DNA from: Balnearium lithotrophicum
GTDB taxonomy: Bacteria > Aquificota > Aquificia > Desulfurobacteriales > Desulfurobacteriaceae
DNA: 34,483 bases
Reading direction: 5' to 3'
Assembly: GCF_900182585.1 (NCBI RefSeq)
Contig: NZ_FXTM01000022.1
Span: 1-34,483 of the forward strand
In this document: positions 5,474-29,601 of the stretch, in pieces
Layout of the letters: every line of letters starts with the position of its first letter
Numbering within the stretch: position 1 is the stretch's first letter
Notes under the pieces: model-generated
What the model was told of the DNA's origin: nothing
The model's database searches: none
Seen by the model: only the letters and a program-made list of their open reading frames with translations
Position numbers and translations under genes: made by a program

Positions 5474-8400
5474 ATGAAAAGGAGGAGGTGGAAAGCGGCT
5501 TTATCTACGGGAACTCTCTTCCTATTAGGAGTTTCTGCTCAAGCCTTAGGTCACCCGGCAGTTCCTCTAAGAGACATCAATGGAAAGCCAATTTCTGAAA
5601 CCCTTAACCCTTCAGACACCATAACAATAGGAAACTCAACTTACATTGCCGGAAATCCTGTAAGTTGGGAAGTCACATGTGGTTCATGCCACAAGGAAGT
5701 TACGGGAGATGTAAAAGGAGGACTTCACTCCCCCGGTCCAATACATGCGACCTACCACATAGGTAGGGGTTGGGATGAGTTAAGTGATGACTTTGGTTAT
5801 GAGAGAGTAAAAGCCGGAAAGGACTGGAGGAAATTTTTACGCTCCTTCGGTGATGATGGAGCCTGGTGACCACCTTCGTACCGCCAGTTGGCGGCAAAGC
5901 ACCCTTCAAAGGACCCCGGGCTTTCTCCAGATATTAACAATGGAGTCGATTACAGAGGAAATGTTAAGTACGACATGGATATGGGAACTCCCGATAAGGT
6001 ATTCACATGTGCATCCTGCCACTCCGGTGGAATTATGGCCTTTGATAGGGACAGCGGAAAGCGCCACGACGAAGTTGAAACCTGGGACAACCAGACCGAT
6101 GGAACAGGATTTTTCTCAAATGCTACCTACTCAGACAGTGAAGTTGACGGAGACTACTTCTCCTATACCGCAGATGAAGAATCAAGGGGATACATCGGAA
6201 TGCCCCACAAGTTCAACTGGAAAAAGTCGGGAGTTTTAGATACAGACTGTCTCCTCTGCCACTCAGACCGTTCCTTAGCTGAAAAAGAAAAGCTTGTAGT
6301 TACTACTTCAAACGGTTGGAATGCTTCAAATCCAACCCCTGCAAACCCAAGGGTTTTTGTCTTTGTTAAGAAGGACAATAACGGAAAGGTTGTTGAGGTT
6401 TCTTTAGGATTTCCTCCACAACTAACACAGGATGAAATTAACAACGGATACACAATCGATTCAGCAGCTTTCTATTCCGACCCTCTTGAGAGATTGGTAA
6501 GTGTTTACTATTCAGACGTTATTCAAGGAGTTATAAAGGATGAGTTAAAACAGTCTGGAATAGACCCAGCAACTCTGAACCAGCAGCAGATGATGACTAT
6601 TCAGAGCTTCACAATAGGTACTATCTCAGGTTATCTGAAACATGGAACGACTACAGGATTTACAATCCCATACTCACAGCTTGGTCAAAAGATAGGTGTT
6701 GACCTTCAGGATTACAACTATGACGATTCTAAATTTAACAATAGACTCTCCGGTTTCTTTGGCCAGTTCTACCTTGATATCGGAGCTCCAAACTTCTCAG
6801 CCCGTGACTACCTGAGAAACGCATTTTTCGAGTCAACAGTTGAGGGTCAGCCTTACGTCGGTTCAGGATTTGTGGTTAGAGCTGCAAATGCAACGAGCAA
6901 TTACTCTTACAAACCGAACGACCCAAACGTTCCGTTTGTAAACCTTGCAAGGGCAGGCCACTTCTTTGGATGGGCAGCAACGGGAACATTAATGTCGATA
7001 GCAGACCCTAACAATCCATCAAAACCTATTGCCTTTGTAAGACTTGAAAAACAACAGGACGGAACGTTCAAGGCTGTAGCTTACTACAAGAATGACGTTG
7101 ACCTTGACAACGTTCAACTGCCCATTCTTGAAACAAGTAACCACTATACTCTAATAAAGGCAGACTCAAGCAGTAAGGATGGTGTATCAGTTTCTCATAC
7201 AGGAGATAAAGATAAAGACCTTTCATTAATGTGTGCCCAGTGCCACTTTGCCATTCCGGACACAGAAAACAAGTGGACTGTAGATGGACAACACTTCTTC
7301 CCCAACTGGTACGTAAGGAGGGGAATCATTGGACTTGGAGCTGACGTTGTTAAGAGAGCTGCGGTCTATGCACCGGATGAGAAACAGAACGACCAATCCG
7401 TTGCCCCGATAGCCATTACTCCAGATGGAGAAATGGCAAAGTACAGCAGTATGAACGATACTATGAACTACTCCGACGGTCTTCCTGTAGGTTACGACGT
7501 TCACATGGCAAAGGATGGTGGGAATTTGTCGTGTCTATCCTGTCACGGACAGGACAATCTTCCCAAAGATGTTAAGGAACACCACAATCCTCACAACTTC
7601 CTGAAAGGTAATGACTCTGCCGGTGAAGTTATGCCTGCACTCGACTACAATCCTTCAGTTAGAACCTGTTCAAGTTGTCACTGGGGAACAGATGACGGCG
7701 CAGCAAAGGCACATGAAGCTTGGTTTGGGCCTGCAGCATCAGCCCACATCAACAAAATTCAGTGTCAGGTATGCCACATACCGTTTAAGACCTACTGGAC
7801 GTTCAGATTCTTCGATGATTCACTTGGATACTCCAACCAGTTTGACGATAGATTAATGAAAATGGATAACGGAACTGTTTATCAGTTTCCTCCAGAGTGG
7901 GCAATTCCTGCCTTTGGACCGACTCCAACCTACGGACTGAACTTCTCTTACGTCATTGCCCAAACGGACGATAACGGAACTGACAAGCTACTTCCAATAA
8001 CGTCAATTGATATGGACCCTTACAGAGCTCTCATGAGGGTCAACAATTCAAACTTTGGACTCTGGAACATTCCTTCGGAAAACTTTCCATGGAGATGGGA
8101 ACCTGCAATTATCAAACGTTGGACTATAAACGATAAGGGAGAGCCTGTCTTAAGGGCAGGTCTAATCAGTCCGATTCAAGTATTTACATGGATTGATGCA
8201 GCAACAGGAAGGGCCCTCTTTGTTCGTGAGATGAACATGGCAATTGATGGAGTTGCCTACGATTCAAATGGAACTCCAGTTGGAAAATCAACCATAGACC
8301 CAGAACTTCCCGAAAAGAGCGTTCCAGGGTTGACGATTGATCCAAAAACTGGAAAAGTTGCATTTAAGATTCACTGGGTAGACGGCAATCCTGGTGGATA

Positions 8401-9454
8401 TGTTGACTATATTGACGATGATGACGGAGATATGGTTCCAGAAATCAGCACAAACGAGGAGTACGAAGCCCTAAAAGCTGCCATTAAACAGGTTCTTGAT
8501 AAGGAAGATCCAGGACATCCTCATAATCCTGTAATCATGACGTTTATGGCACCATTTGGCATTGACCACGGAGTTCTACCTGCTGAGTATGCCCTTGGAG
8601 CTCAGAAGACTGGTCCTCTTTCCTGTAACGCTTGTCACAACTCAGATGAGAGTAAGAACAGGTTGAGTCCGGCGGTCTGGGAAGGGGATGAAAGTGCAGG
8701 AAGGAAGGTAACTCTCACGTTCCACGCCCTACCAGATGAGGCCGTCAGCGAGTCTAAGGCAACGGGAATGTGGATGTTACCGGAGGGAACTAAGTCTGAG
8801 AACGGTAGGTACGTGATTACTCAGGGAGCTCTCTGCAGAGTAACGTCCGTTGGAGTCGAAAGTAAGGAATTTTCTGCTTTCTACTTAGTTACTCCTGATG
8901 GTACTGTAACAGGACCTGTCTCAGATGAAGTAAAAATTTCTGTAGACAAAGGAGCAGTGGATGTTCCAACTTCTGTTAAAGTCGAAAAGGTTGAGAATGC
9001 AAACATTGAGGAATCTGCAGTTGAAGCTGCAAAATCGTACGGAATAGATACTCCCGTTCTTGCAACTGAAGTCTTGGATATTCATACGAAAACAAACAAA
9101 TTTAATTCACCTGTAACATTTACAATTAAGTACGACCCATCCAAGGTGGCAAACAAGGTATTAATTCTTGCAAGTGAGGACGGTAAAAACTGGACAAAAG
9201 TTACAGAATTTGGCGTTGACCCGAACAATCCTTACGTAACGTTTGCAAGGAGCCAGCTCAGCTACTTTGCAGTTGTAGGTGAAGCTCCTTCATCAATTCC
9301 TTCAGGAACAGCACAAACTACAACCGGAGGTGGTAGTGGAGGTGGTTGTTCAATTTCTCCTGCTGTAGAGCCAGTTTCTGGAGGAGTTAGCCTTCTAACG
9401 ATGCTTTCAGGTCTAATAGGGCTTCTCCTTGGAAGGAAAAAAAGGAAAAACTAA
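5474..9454 (+). CDS. Octahaem c-type cytochrome with in-frame UGA (probable selenoprotein)
   Basis: Read through the UGA at 5867-5869 as selenocysteine (residue 132), this is one frame of 1326 residues. A Sec signal peptide (MKRRRWKAALSTG..., cleavage near AQALG) leads to eight CXXCH haem sites: CGSCH ~69, CASCH ~179, CLLCH ~259, CAQCH ~587, CLSCH ~686, CSSCH ~732, CQVCH ~764, CNACH ~1050. A beta-rich domain follows (about 1130-1260), then a Gly-rich linker, GCSISP, a hydrophobic segment and RKKRKN, resembling a surface-sorting tail. The UGA context is GAW-U-PPSYRQLAAK, shared with the paralogue at 25099. A separate start at TTG 5888 is unlikely: it lies inside the hairpin, has no ribosome binding site and would yield a cytochrome without signal peptide. 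It is probably monocistronic, ending at a strong terminator. Extracellular electron transfer or reductase role is inferred; substrate unknown. Confidence 0.9.
5867..5899 (+). promoter_or_regulatory. Candidate bacterial SECIS element and Sec UGA codon (cytochrome 1)
   Basis: The UGA (5867-5869) is followed by a hairpin: CCGCC (5881-5885), loop AGUU (5886-5889), GGCGG (5890-5894). The apical loop begins 16 nt after the UGA and has a G in its first two bases, matching the general rules described for bacterial SECIS (spacing about 16-37 nt, short stem, early G). CUU (5874-5876) can pair with AAG (5897-5899) to extend the lower stem across a small internal loop. It recurs with one base changed, outside the upper stem, in the second cytochrome. 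Confidence 0.82.
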
Positions 9455-9681
9455 TCTTTAGGGGGCTTCTGCCCCCTATTTTCCTCATTTTTCTTTCTGT
9501 ACTTTACCTTCAAAAAGCTCATGGCGCTGACCAGCGCAACCAAGTAACCACCACTTCAGACGGGACAGTTCGGCTGTCCACAACCACAGGCTAAAAACGA
9601 CGAAATTCCAGCGCTACTTCCCAAAGTTAAAAGTCCGGCTGTTTTCAGTTTCTCCCACTTTTTCTTCACCCAACTCCTCAC
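9451..9681 (-). CDS. Small Cys-rich membrane ORF with in-frame UGA (candidate selenoprotein)
   Basis: This reading frame begins at GTG 9681 (GTGA overlap with the stop of the upstream 49-residue gene; GAGGAG lies close by). It starts MRSWVKKKWEKLKTAG and has a hydrophobic stretch, then FLACGCGQPNCPV, and reaches UGA at 9558-9556 (codon 42). If the UGA is selenocysteine the frame goes on as SGGYLVALVSAMSF, KVKYRKK and a polar tail to TAG at 9453-9451, 76 residues in all. The extension is a hydrophobic helix followed by basic residues, protein-like rather than random. The codons just after the UGA (GCG CTG GTC AGC GCC) are rich in G and C, unlike the neighbours, as expected where an RNA hairpin is being kept. 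I do not recognise the family. The alternative is a 41-residue product ending at the UGA. The tail overlaps the shared terminator, which weakens the case slightly. Confidence 0.5.
9459..9482. terminator. Rho-independent terminator after cytochrome 1 (possibly bidirectional)
   Basis: TAGGGGGC (9459-9466), loop TTCT, GCCCCCTA (9471-9478) and then TTTT form a perfect 8-bp GC-rich stem with a short U-tract, 4 bp after the cytochrome stop codon. The stem also lies at the end of the convergent leftward operon and overlaps the 3' end of the small Cys-rich ORF if that ORF reads through its UGA. On the minus strand the U-run (TTTTT) is about 8 nt further on. Confidence 0.85.
9524..9558 (-). promoter_or_regulatory. 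Candidate SECIS element and Sec UGA codon (small Cys-rich ORF)
   Basis: On the minus strand the UGA (9558-9556) is followed by a hairpin: GCGCU (9537-9533), loop GGUC (9532-9529), AGCGC (9528-9524). The loop starts 23 nt after the UGA and opens with GG; GGUC also forms the core of the E. coli fdhF SECIS loop (GGUCU). The hairpin is a perfect palindrome, inside a coding frame that stays open for 34 codons beyond the UGA. Its sequence differs from the cytochrome hairpins, so it would be an independent element. Confidence 0.5.
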
Positions 9682-9827
9682 TTTTCAGACAGAATTGCCA
9701 GAACATAAACAACAAATGCCAAAAAGAACAGAAGGAGAATCAGATACCAGGAAAATTTAAATATTCTTTTCTTCCAACAGTCTTCCCTTTTCTTCTCTCT
9801 GTAGTAGTCCCTATCGTAAATTCCCAT
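9678..9827 (-). CDS. Small single-span membrane protein, 49 residues
   Basis: The ATG at 9827 lies 1 nt after the cysS stop codon. The frame codes for MGIYDRDYYREKKREDC, a basic WKKRIF stretch, one transmembrane helix (WYLILLLFFLAFVVYVLAIL) and LSEK, stopping at 9678-9680. The charged N-terminus with the YDRDYYR pattern followed by a C-terminal anchor suggests a cytoplasmic-facing tail-anchored protein. I do not recognise a function. Tight spacing to cysS and a 4-nt GTGA overlap with the next small ORF show that it is translated as part of the leftward operon. The length, clean TM helix and operon fit make it a likely real gene. Confidence 0.7.
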   Translation of the reverse strand: MGIYDRDYYREKKREDCWKKRIFKFSWYLILLLFFLAFVVYVLAILSEK

Positions 9828-25098: not shown

Positions 25099-28000
25099 AT
25101 GGGAAGGAAGTGGAAGAGGAGCAGTCTAAAAGTAACAACAGGCCTCATACTATCAACAGTGCTGGCATCCCAAGGGTTTGCACAGCACCCGTCGGTTAAA
25201 CTCTTAGACCTTGACGGAAACTCCGTTAAAAGTTCCCTCAATGCAACAGATACCGTGACCCTTGTCTCAAACAACGGAACAGAAGTTACTCTGGAAAGAG
25301 GAAACCCTGTAAGTTTTGAAAAGACATGTGGACAGTGTCACGAGAACATTATTGAAGACGTTAGAGCATCCCACCATGGCGCAGTTGGCCTTCACGACAT
25401 GGGATGGATTGATAACAGAGAAACGTTCGGGGACGATACAGGAAGTAAGGACTTTGTTACAAACGTTGTTCTGAAAATGAGGTACTTCCGCTCAAAGTCC
25501 CACTACGGCGGCTGGTGACCACCTTCATACCGCCAGTTGGCGGCAAAGAAACCTTTAAACGACCCTGCAGTTCCAGATGGGGCCGTTGACGGAATCAACC
25601 CTGCAGACCAGAATGCCTACAAGGGTTTCAACTTTGATATGGGCACTGCAAACCACAACATAACCTGTAACTCCTGTCACGCAGGTGGTGGTGCAGCCCA
25701 GTTTGGAAGGGAAAACAAACCCTTAGATGAAGTGTTAAAGGAGAAGTTAGGAGAGGATAAGTTCAACGATTTGGAGAACAAGGACTGGTTTATAGATATC
25801 GACAACGACACTGACTACAACATTCCTATTGATGGAGACCTCTTTGCCTATTCTGACTACGAGGTCGGTGGAGGTTACATAGGGAAACCCCACCTATTTA
25901 ACTTCAAGCGTTCTGGTGTAAACGATACAGACTGTCTCATGTGTCACGCCGATGCAACTCAAAGAGCCAAAACTGTAAAGACGGAAATAAACAATACAAC
26001 TCTTTCTCCCATAATGCCTGCGAATCCAAGGGTTATGGTGTTTAAAGGGATGACATCTGATAATGAGACAATAGTCATTTCATTAGGTGTTCCTCCAAAA
26101 GTTGGAGAGACGATAAACGGAAAAACTGTTGCAAAGGTTGATTCTGCTTACTACAACTCTGTTCCTATAACTGTTCTTAAATCCCTCTACGGATTGTCCG
26201 ATGATGATATATCCAACATCGAATCAAACAATGGAACGTGGTCAAGATTTTTCATCTATCCAAACAATGCAAACGGAGCAACGAGGGAAGTTGCAAGGGT
26301 TACCTACTTTGAACATCCCAAGAGCACAAAGGATAAGGACGGTGGGGATGTTTACGTTAACGGCGGAGCTGTAACCTTTAAGGACGATAATGGAGATACC
26401 GTTTACAGGACGTTTGCTGGATTCTTCTTTAAGTACATATCAACAGCCTCTCTAATGGGAGTAGATACAGACCAGGATGGAGTTCCTCTTGCCTACGTCA
26501 GGTTTGTTAAGGAAAACGGCATCTGGAAACCTGAAGTTTACTACGACGTTAAAGAGTTTAACGATAAAGGAGAGGTGGACCTTCCAATCTTAGAGAACAG
26601 AGTTGGTGATAAGAACACACCAGCTACAGAGGTTTCTCCTAAGGATTACAACTATTCAGTTCCTACGGCTTTAGGAAATGCCGATAATCCTTATCCTCAA
26701 ATGACAACTCCTGCCGAAGGGAGTGATAAGAATAGAGCCTGGGGATACGTATGTTCTTACTGTCACATGGCAATTCCCTACGAGGATGGAAAGCTTCCAG
26801 ATGGAAACTCAACATACGCCTGGGTAACGAGGAAGGGAACTCTCGGACTTGGAGCTGAAATCGTTAAAAGGGGAGACGTCTTCTCCTACGATTTACACAG
26901 AGGTGGAGAGGAGAAAGGAAACTTACCAGCAGATGCATTCAAGAACGTAGACCTTTCAAACAGTACTCAAGCCCAGCAGGCTTTCCACAGAATGTTAACT
27001 GCAAAGTCCGTTCAATCGATTGATGATATCCCAATAGGTTACGACGTTCACTTTGACAGTGAAAAGGGAGGAATGACCTGTCTCTCTTGTCACGGTGAGG
27101 GAACACTCTCTCAGGAGGAGAAAGAGTACCATCCTATACACCACGACTTTTTAAAGGGTAACGACTGGGGAGGTCACTGGGACCAGTCCTTAGACTACAA
27201 CCCTTCACTTAAAACGTGTTTAGACTGTCACTTTGGAGGTTCAAGGCAGCTTGCTGCCCAAGTTCATAGCGATGCATTTGGACCAGAAGGAAACGCTGCA
27301 ATCCACATGGAGAAGGTCTCCTGTGAAGTCTGCCACATTCCATTTAAAACCCACTGGACATTCAGAACGTTCTACGACGTCCTTGGATACTCCTACAACT
27401 TTGACAACAGAATTCTTGGATACAATCTAAACAACGGTACAACTGTACCTCTTCCTGAAAGTATGTTTACTCCAGGATTTGGTCCATTTATGCCAATTGC
27501 AGGGTACGGAGCTCCCCAACCTTTCTGTATTGTGAGAACGGACAACGGTAAAGATACTCTTGTTCCAATATATCAGGCTGACTTTGACCCAAGGCAGGCA
27601 GCCCTAAGGCTTGAGAAGAAAGAATTTGGAATTTGGAACGTTCCAGACATTTCATTCCCATGGGCCTGGGCTCCAGTAATAATCAACAACGGATTTAGAC
27701 CTGACGTTCCAGGTGGACAGAAGTTCATGTACAGAATAGCAGACCCCCTAACACTTGTAACCTGGTACGACAAATCAACTGGAAAAGTTCTGTACACAAG
27801 GGAAATGGCAGCTGCACTTGATGGAACTGAATATTCAGAACACGCAAAGAAAAACGTTCCGGCCTACTTTATACACGATGGAAAGGTATGTGTTAAAACA
27901 ATCTTAGGTGACTACATATGTGACGACAACGGCGATTACCTACCTGAAATAGATACAGACGAAGAGTACGAAGCAATGAAGTCTGCCCTTACAGATGTTC

Positions 28001-29601
28001 TAAAGAGAGAGGGGGTTAAAAATCCTGACCCTGTCTTCTACATCTGGACTGCTCCGTTCAGCATAGACCACGGTGTCCTTCCAAAGGATTATGCCCTTGG
28101 TGCAGGAAAAACCGTTAATGGAGAGGAGCTCAACTGTTCTGCCTGCCACGATGCTAAAAATGGAAGGCTTCCTCAGGCAAACATGGCAGACATTGAGGGA
28201 AGCTCAACACTCAAAGAGCTGATAGTTAAAGACAGTAAAGGAAACGTTAAGTTCTTCGGTCTTGGAAGGGAGATTGTTACAGTTCCAACCAAGATTCCGC
28301 CTACGGCTTACAAGGAAGCAGTTAGGGTATTCTTCAACTCCCCTGAGGATGAGAACGGCAATCCTAAGTATGGAACAATGAAGATTAAGGTTGCTGGAAC
28401 TGAAAAGGACATTGATGTCATGTACACAACGGCTGGAGATATCTTAGTTAATGCCCTTACAAACGGAGTTGATATAGACAGGCACCTTGTTCCGATTCCT
28501 GTAGAGAGCTCCGGAATAGATGGAGCTGCATTTGCCCTTCCTGATAAGAAGTCAACCTGGAAGATGAGAATCGAAGGAGTTGAGACGGAAGTTGAAACAG
28601 AAGCTCTCGAAAATGACGAGATGCCAAGAAGGGCAATCGTTGTTAGAATGAAGAACGAAATGCCGGAGCTCTTAGGCTTTGAGCACCTTGCAGAAGAGAT
28701 AATGTCTGCCGGAGAAGGGAACTACGTAGCGGTATTCACACCTATAATTCCTTCAGAGTACATAGAAAAAATGACGTTTAATCTTGCCAACTTAAAGGTT
28801 GCTGACCCTGAGAACCTCTCAATCAACTATGCAAAAATTCACAAAGTAAGAGTATCTGAAGAAAGTAACGTTCACTACGAAGTTGACAAGGAGAACTTTA
28901 AGCCAGAGTCAATTTCCGTTAAGGAAGCAATCAGCAGGGGATGGGCTTACTACGACCCATCTACCGGAGAGTTGGTAGTAAACGTTAAAGCTATGAGTGA
29001 GGAAGTTCCCGGAGAGGGAGAGCTTGCATTTTCCGTTATGAGAAAGGTTGGAAGTGAAGTTATCCTTCCAGAAGAAGTTCAAACCAATAACGGTCAGATT
29101 GTTGCTAAGGTCGAAGGAAAAGAGGTTACAGTCAGTGTAGCAGATGCAGCAATAGACGAAGTTCTCAGACCTGTAGACCTTCTAAAATTTGCCCAAGAAC
29201 TGAGACTTAAAAAGGTGGTCGTTGGTTTTAAGGTTACAGATGAGGACAACAACTTCTCTATTGAGATTGACCCGAACGGCGCTATTGACTCAAACAGGGC
29301 TGTTGCCTACATCATCGTTAACGGAGAAAAGCATAAATGTAAACCAACTGTTGAAAGCAACGGTAAACTCAAGGTTACCTATCCATGTACAAGGTCTGAA
29401 ACAAGGGCTACCGAACCGATTGAAGTTGTAGTTGGTGAGGAGAGCTCCACGCCGACGGTCTCCGGTGGAATCAGCGGAGGAGGCGGTGGAGGTGGTTGTT
29501 CCATTTCTCCTTCAACAACTGCCTCAAGTGGACTGTTTAACTTAGGACTTCTCCTATCCGGACTTTTAGGGTTCTTCGGGTTTAGAAGAAAGAAGCACTA
29601 A
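25099..29601 (+). CDS. Octahaem c-type cytochrome with in-frame UGA (probable selenoprotein), second copy
   Basis: With the UGA at 25516-25518 read as selenocysteine (residue 140) this is a single frame of 1500 residues. It has a signal peptide (MGRKWKRSSLKVTTG..., cleavage near GFAQ) and eight CXXCH sites: CGQCH ~76, CNSCH ~190, CLMCH ~278, CSYCH ~552, CLSCH ~661, CLDCH ~707, CEVCH ~742, CSACH ~1012. Blocks shared with the 5474 paralogue include CHIPFKTxWTFR, DxLGYSxxFDxR and IDHGVLPxxYALGA. The long region after haem 8 (about 1020-1440) is different from the paralogue and beta-rich. The C-terminus is a Gly run, CSISPS, a hydrophobic helix and FRRKKH, a likely surface-sorting tail. Context at the Sec is GGW-U-PPSYRQLAAK. 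The gene looks monocistronic, between a hairpin and a strong terminator. Substrate unknown; extracellular electron transfer is inferred. Confidence 0.9.
25516..25548 (+). promoter_or_regulatory. Candidate bacterial SECIS element and Sec UGA codon (cytochrome 2)
   Basis: UGA 25516-25518 is followed by CCGCC (25530-25534), loop AGUU (25535-25538) and GGCGG (25539-25543). Spacing from UGA to loop is again 16 nt. From the TGG before the UGA to the AAG after the hairpin, 36 nt match the first cytochrome with one synonymous change (Ser TCG to TCA). The Arg in the stem is CGC, where neighbours mostly use AGG or AGA. Confidence 0.82.

Follow-up and report, generated by a model that had tools for sequence, protein, structure and literature searches.

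Candidate selenoprotein gene and its neighbours

The window, that is, the whole stretch of 34,483 nt of Balnearium lithotrophicum DNA that was analysed, carries on its minus strand a small frame at 9451..9681 that is described here as a candidate selenoprotein gene. When translated with TGA=U, it reads FLACGCGQPNCPV, then an in-frame UGA (9558-9556, minus strand), then SGGYLVALVSAMSFLKVKYRKK and a polar/basic tail. The product is 76 residues long from the GTG at 9681-9679, which overlaps the TGA stop of an upstream 49-codon gene with a transmembrane helix (GTGA), so that the two genes are translationally coupled. An alternative GTG at 9669-9667, four codons downstream, is preceded by a GAGGAG element and fits the Cys-containing homologues better; based on this element and the alignment, it was the preferred start, giving 72 residues. 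The stop codon TAG (9453-9451) lies within a 4-nt overlap with the end of a convergent cytochrome gene. The coordinates and the translation thus confirm the minus-strand frame 9681-9451, with its GTGA coupling and its UGA, that had been proposed in an earlier sequence-only reading of this DNA.

The upstream gene (9678..9827, minus strand) encodes a 49-residue single-helix protein, MGIYDRDYYRE..., for which Pfam gave no match; it is retained after cysS across most of the order's genomes. A terminator-like hairpin, GGGGGC-AGAA-GCCCCC, could be found at 9461..9476 between the convergent genes, without assignment to a strand, and the last ~8 codons of the candidate overlap it. The coding signal after the UGA was intermediate: an equal or higher score is reached by 11% of open out-of-frame stretches, and an equal or lower one by 9% of true coding stretches. 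Structure prediction returned two helices (residues 3-26 and 36-65) with low confidence (mean pLDDT 59.5). The membrane helix that the earlier reading had placed next to the Cys/Sec cluster is supported by hydropathy and by the layout of the Cys-containing family described below.

The convergent gene (5474..9454, plus strand) encodes a multihaem cytochrome that has a conserved Sec-UGA itself, at 5867-5869, and a second multihaem cytochrome with an in-frame UGA occurs at 25099-29601 (plus strand). The UGA context in both is GAW/GGW-U-PPSYRQLAAK. The UGA is present in all 27 cytochrome matches from the order, with the invariant ACCGCCAGTTGGCGGC after it, and a 16-nt hairpin block is likewise invariant in 27/27. 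The cytochromes look like a separate family of Sec cytochromes because they score far below the cut-off for NCBIfam TIGR04315. They end in GGGCSI, a helix and a basic tail, resembling a C-terminal sorting signal (weak JDVT-CTERM match).

SECIS-like hairpin and selenocysteine machinery

A SECIS-like hairpin, GCGCU-GGUC-AGCGC, is present on the minus strand at 9537-9524 with a 5-bp stem and an energy of -6.0 kcal/mol for the core, or -6.8 with flanks. As it starts 18 nt past the UGA, its loop opens at 23 nt. The position of the hairpin and its GG-opened loop agree with the earlier description, and the likeness to the fdhF loop that had been drawn there held on checking against E. coli records, where GGUC is identical. 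The codons beneath the hairpin had also been called GC-rich; 12 of their 15 bases are G/C, and merely 0.023% of in-frame 15-mers in long ORFs are as rich.

An equally strong hairpin in the SECIS position follows only 1.2-1.3% of all TGA triplets. Within the window, hairpins of such design starting 11-18 nt past a TGA were limited to the two cytochrome SECIS elements and the candidate, and one apparent terminator hairpin was seen with a TGA at 25 nt. When the 49 nt that begin with the UGA were folded with RNAfold, a different structure was preferred (-10.2 kcal/mol, z +0.66); the candidate hairpin does not correspond to the local energy minimum. The published bSECIS model describes an upper stem of 4-16 bp, a loop of 3-9 nt with G in its first two positions, a distance of 16-37 nt from the UGA to the apical loop, and a minimum free energy of -7.5 kcal/mol or lower (PMC13188914, Fig. 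2). The stem and loop of the candidate (5 bp, GGUC) and its spacing of 23 nt lie within this model, while its core of -6.0 kcal/mol falls short of -7.5, as does, by the same measure, the core of the peroxiredoxin hairpin of the same genome (-6.9).

The genome encodes the machinery for Sec insertion. A tRNA-Sec could be identified at C10:4261-4351 with 78.9 bits, above the Rfam cut-off, and SelB at C5:9529-11400 with 428 bits against an NCBIfam cut-off of 242. The formate dehydrogenase-like genes found in the genome contain no in-frame UGA and therefore give no local reference SECIS.

UGA codons were scanned over 831 kb, about half of the genome, comprising sampled stretches and the window. A UGA was retained when at least 30 open codons preceded it, at least 20 followed it, and no longer frame overlapped it. 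Among the 82 UGAs that passed, nine were followed by a hairpin of SECIS geometry at -6 kcal/mol or lower: seven belong to clear or likely selenoproteins (the two cytochromes, a peroxiredoxin, a hydrogenase large subunit, a CopZ-like protein, a ferredoxin-type protein, and a GGDEF protein), one is a terminator-like hairpin, and one is the candidate. Since seven of the nine are clear or likely selenoproteins, most UGAs passing both the filter and the hairpin search look like genuine selenoproteins. The loop distances of the seven were 16, 16, 16, 17, 18, 20, and 22 nt, and the candidate, at 23 nt, lies just outside this range. The filter was set after the candidate had been seen, and the ferredoxin-type and GGDEF cases were assigned by frame continuity and family matches; the result is therefore read as evidence of enrichment and carries no formal p-value.

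The peroxiredoxin (FTYV-U-PTE, L139:12086-12757), the hydrogenase large subunit (DP-U-IACAVH, following DP-U-xxC, L150:14035-15342), and the CopZ-like protein (GR-U-C, L153:8378-8614) are likely selenoproteins. The ferredoxin-type protein (KIVCPEDAFL-U-GIGCSG, L201:8724-9326, on contig C7) has a strong hairpin at 16 nt. The GGDEF (diguanylate cyclase) protein (L189:9788-11014, on contig C2) carries its UGA in a Cys-containing N-terminal part, FFCGVAGG-U-QGMSELSRRE, with the hairpin loop 22 nt downstream, and it possibly places Sec in a sensor of c-di-GMP signalling.

Cysteine-containing homologues and readings of the UGA

A search of the phylum revealed a family of small two-helix proteins (58-74 residues) with the motif CGCGxCPxC in Aquificaceae-type genomes. 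The initial matches were weak and proved to form one coherent family, with 11 homologues from ten genomes of one genus, in the same class, and one more distant genome. The best E-value against the family profile was 1.9e-34, some such members having been included in the profile, and five Aquificaceae/Aquificota loci were obtained when genome contigs were scanned with the Cys family. The motif consists of CGCG (once CACG) followed by x-CPxC, with a hydrophobic stretch on either side and a basic tail. The UGA of the candidate aligns with the last Cys, which is present in 11/11 homologues, CPxC being invariant where the candidate has CPV-UGA. Profile searches of Pfam, NCBIfam, and PDB gave chance-level matches at best for both the candidate and the Cys family.

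Because the family had been found using the candidate sequence, a reverse search was conducted, in which a Cys-only profile was run against the whole B. lithotrophicum genome. The sole match was the candidate locus, aligned across the UGA, with a weak E-value of 0.034. None of 5000 shuffles of the candidate protein reached its profile score. The profile signal lies almost wholly upstream of the UGA, and for the part after it 1489/5000 shuffles scored as well against the family; conservation past the UGA is therefore limited to composition and layout.

Within the order, the candidate gene was found in B. lithotrophicum only. Searching the order (24 genomes) with the whole frame gave, besides the candidate itself, chance-level matches only, and the exact codon pattern CGCGxxxCxxC/U was absent from the order, which is a weak test because its spacing is one residue shorter than that of the candidate. 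Scans of viral, plasmid, and genome-contig sequences with the candidate revealed no closer relative, and a Cys homologue used as query against plasmids gave no match. The earlier reading had suggested looking for Cys homologues beside cysS: homologues that have Cys in place of the UGA do exist, but they lie elsewhere, in another family, and not beside cysS.

With a probability of about 0.75, the UGA at 9558-9556 is read as Sec and the candidate is a selenoprotein, the Sec-containing version of a hitherto undescribed Cys family. The selenoprotein of about 76 residues that had been proposed from the letters of the window is thus well supported by the Cys homologues, the Sec machinery, and a SECIS-like hairpin as in the recognisable selenoproteins of the genome.

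Two other readings of the UGA were considered. It could be a recent nonsense mutation (TGC/TGT to TGA) in a Cys-type gene that is now decaying or truncated, the hairpin being coincidental. One base change would suffice for this, the UGA falls exactly on the conserved Cys, the gene occurs once in the order, and the similarity past the UGA is compositional only. However, a hairpin of such strength stands in this position after only about 1.2% of TGAs, most UGAs of such kind in this genome belong to selenoproteins, and past the UGA the frame has stayed open, coding for a hydrophobic stretch and a basic tail as in the Cys family, which makes a nonsense mutation unlikely. The UGA could also be an ordinary stop, as is the default reading, closing a functional 54-residue one-helix peptide that ends in CGCGQPNCPV and is unrelated in function to SGGYLVALVSAMSFLK and the rest of the downstream sequence. 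This would agree with a family profile signal located almost entirely 5' of the UGA; however, such a peptide would have neither the invariant last Cys nor the second helix of all homologues, and a spacer of ~75 nt would be left before the terminator hairpin. The spacer is absent in the genus mates G003-G005, where the 49-codon gene runs straight into the terminator hairpin. An ordinary stop is accordingly judged quite improbable.

Possible function and comparison with known systems

In the Cys-type genomes, the small gene is located between a gene for an outer-membrane-channel-like protein of ~475 residues and znuA (PF01297, 4.8e-42), which is followed by a znuB-type permease (PF00950, 2.7e-12). 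The upstream side is occupied by a gene for a secreted, HHHED-containing peptide with a pair of Cys residues and, in the majority of these genomes, by one for a DsrE-like protein (weak match, below the cut-off). The zinc-uptake-like operon is conserved in Aquificaceae-type genomes (L076-L085), in the order HHHED/Cys peptide, DsrE-like protein, outer-membrane-type protein ending in NFAIGAHGAHPF, CGCGxCPxC peptide, znuA, and znuB-type permease. As the Cys homologues adjoin znuA and the znuB-type permease, the operon context of the family points to metal uptake. The znuA gene of B. lithotrophicum is on contig C17 with no such small gene beside it, and because of this separate location the functional inference is a loose one. 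The candidate appears related to the Cys family in motif and layout, and a functional system shared with it has candidate status only.

The product would be a two-helix membrane peptide of 72-76 residues comprising a basic N-tail, helix 1, the loop CGCGQPNCPVU, helix 2, and a basic C-tail, in which the UGA would be decoded as Sec by the organism's own SelB and tRNA-Sec, with the hairpin at 9537-9524 acting as SECIS. By the positive-inside rule, basic tails of membrane proteins lie inside, and with such tails the Cys/Sec loop would face outward. CPVU could be a redox-type CxxU pair; alternatively, C-x-C…C-x-x-U could provide ligands for a soft metal. The two roles may also combine, CPVU forming with CGC a metal site that might help in delivering zinc or some other soft metal, or in protecting it. 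The favoured role is the handling of metal or thiols at the outer side of the inner membrane, at somewhat less than even odds. At about the same odds, the gene may represent a new selenoprotein family of two-helix membrane metal/thiol peptides (CGCG-CPxC/U) connected with zinc uptake in Aquificota, in which one lineage has Sec as the final ligand or redox residue.

The convergent cytochrome had been suggested as a partner, and both are immediate neighbours with predicted Sec; however, the cytochrome occurs beside cysS in G003-G005, and also in further genomes, without the candidate gene, and the Cys homologues are located in zinc-transport operons, so that a role as its redox partner is unsupported and very improbable, and dependence of the candidate on the cytochrome was dropped.

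Annotation readily overlooks very short selenoproteins, since the UGA resembles the end of a gene. If the Sec reading is true, an undescribed family would be added to the selenoprotein catalogue, and Sec would be suggested at an extracytoplasmic metal or thiol site. The selenoproteome of this lineage also looks larger than expected, with at least seven further likely selenoproteins in half of the genome.

Among the 119 selenoprotein families and subfamilies catalogued (PMC13188914), none could be recognised as the candidate, which also has no NCBIfam match, although it shares with the catalogued CxxU selenoproteins the motif (CPVU) and a UGA with a downstream hairpin. With the E. coli fdhF SECIS, it shares the loop GGUC and GGUUGC leading into the stem, whereas the fdhF loop opens 18 nt past the UGA and that of the candidate at 23 nt, without a clear lower stem. 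The candidate also resembles the SECIS of this genome's peroxiredoxin (L139) in its GC-rich 5-bp stem and its loop GGUC, the loop standing 17 nt past the UGA there and 23 nt in the candidate. Compared with the CGCGxCPxC family, the candidate has a Sec codon for the last Cys, an extra PN between CGCGQ and CP, a shorter segment after the motif, and a location beside cysS rather than znuA; it agrees with the family in size, basic N-tail, CGCG, the CP-x-C/U spacing, and the hydrophobic stretch and basic tail that follow the motif.
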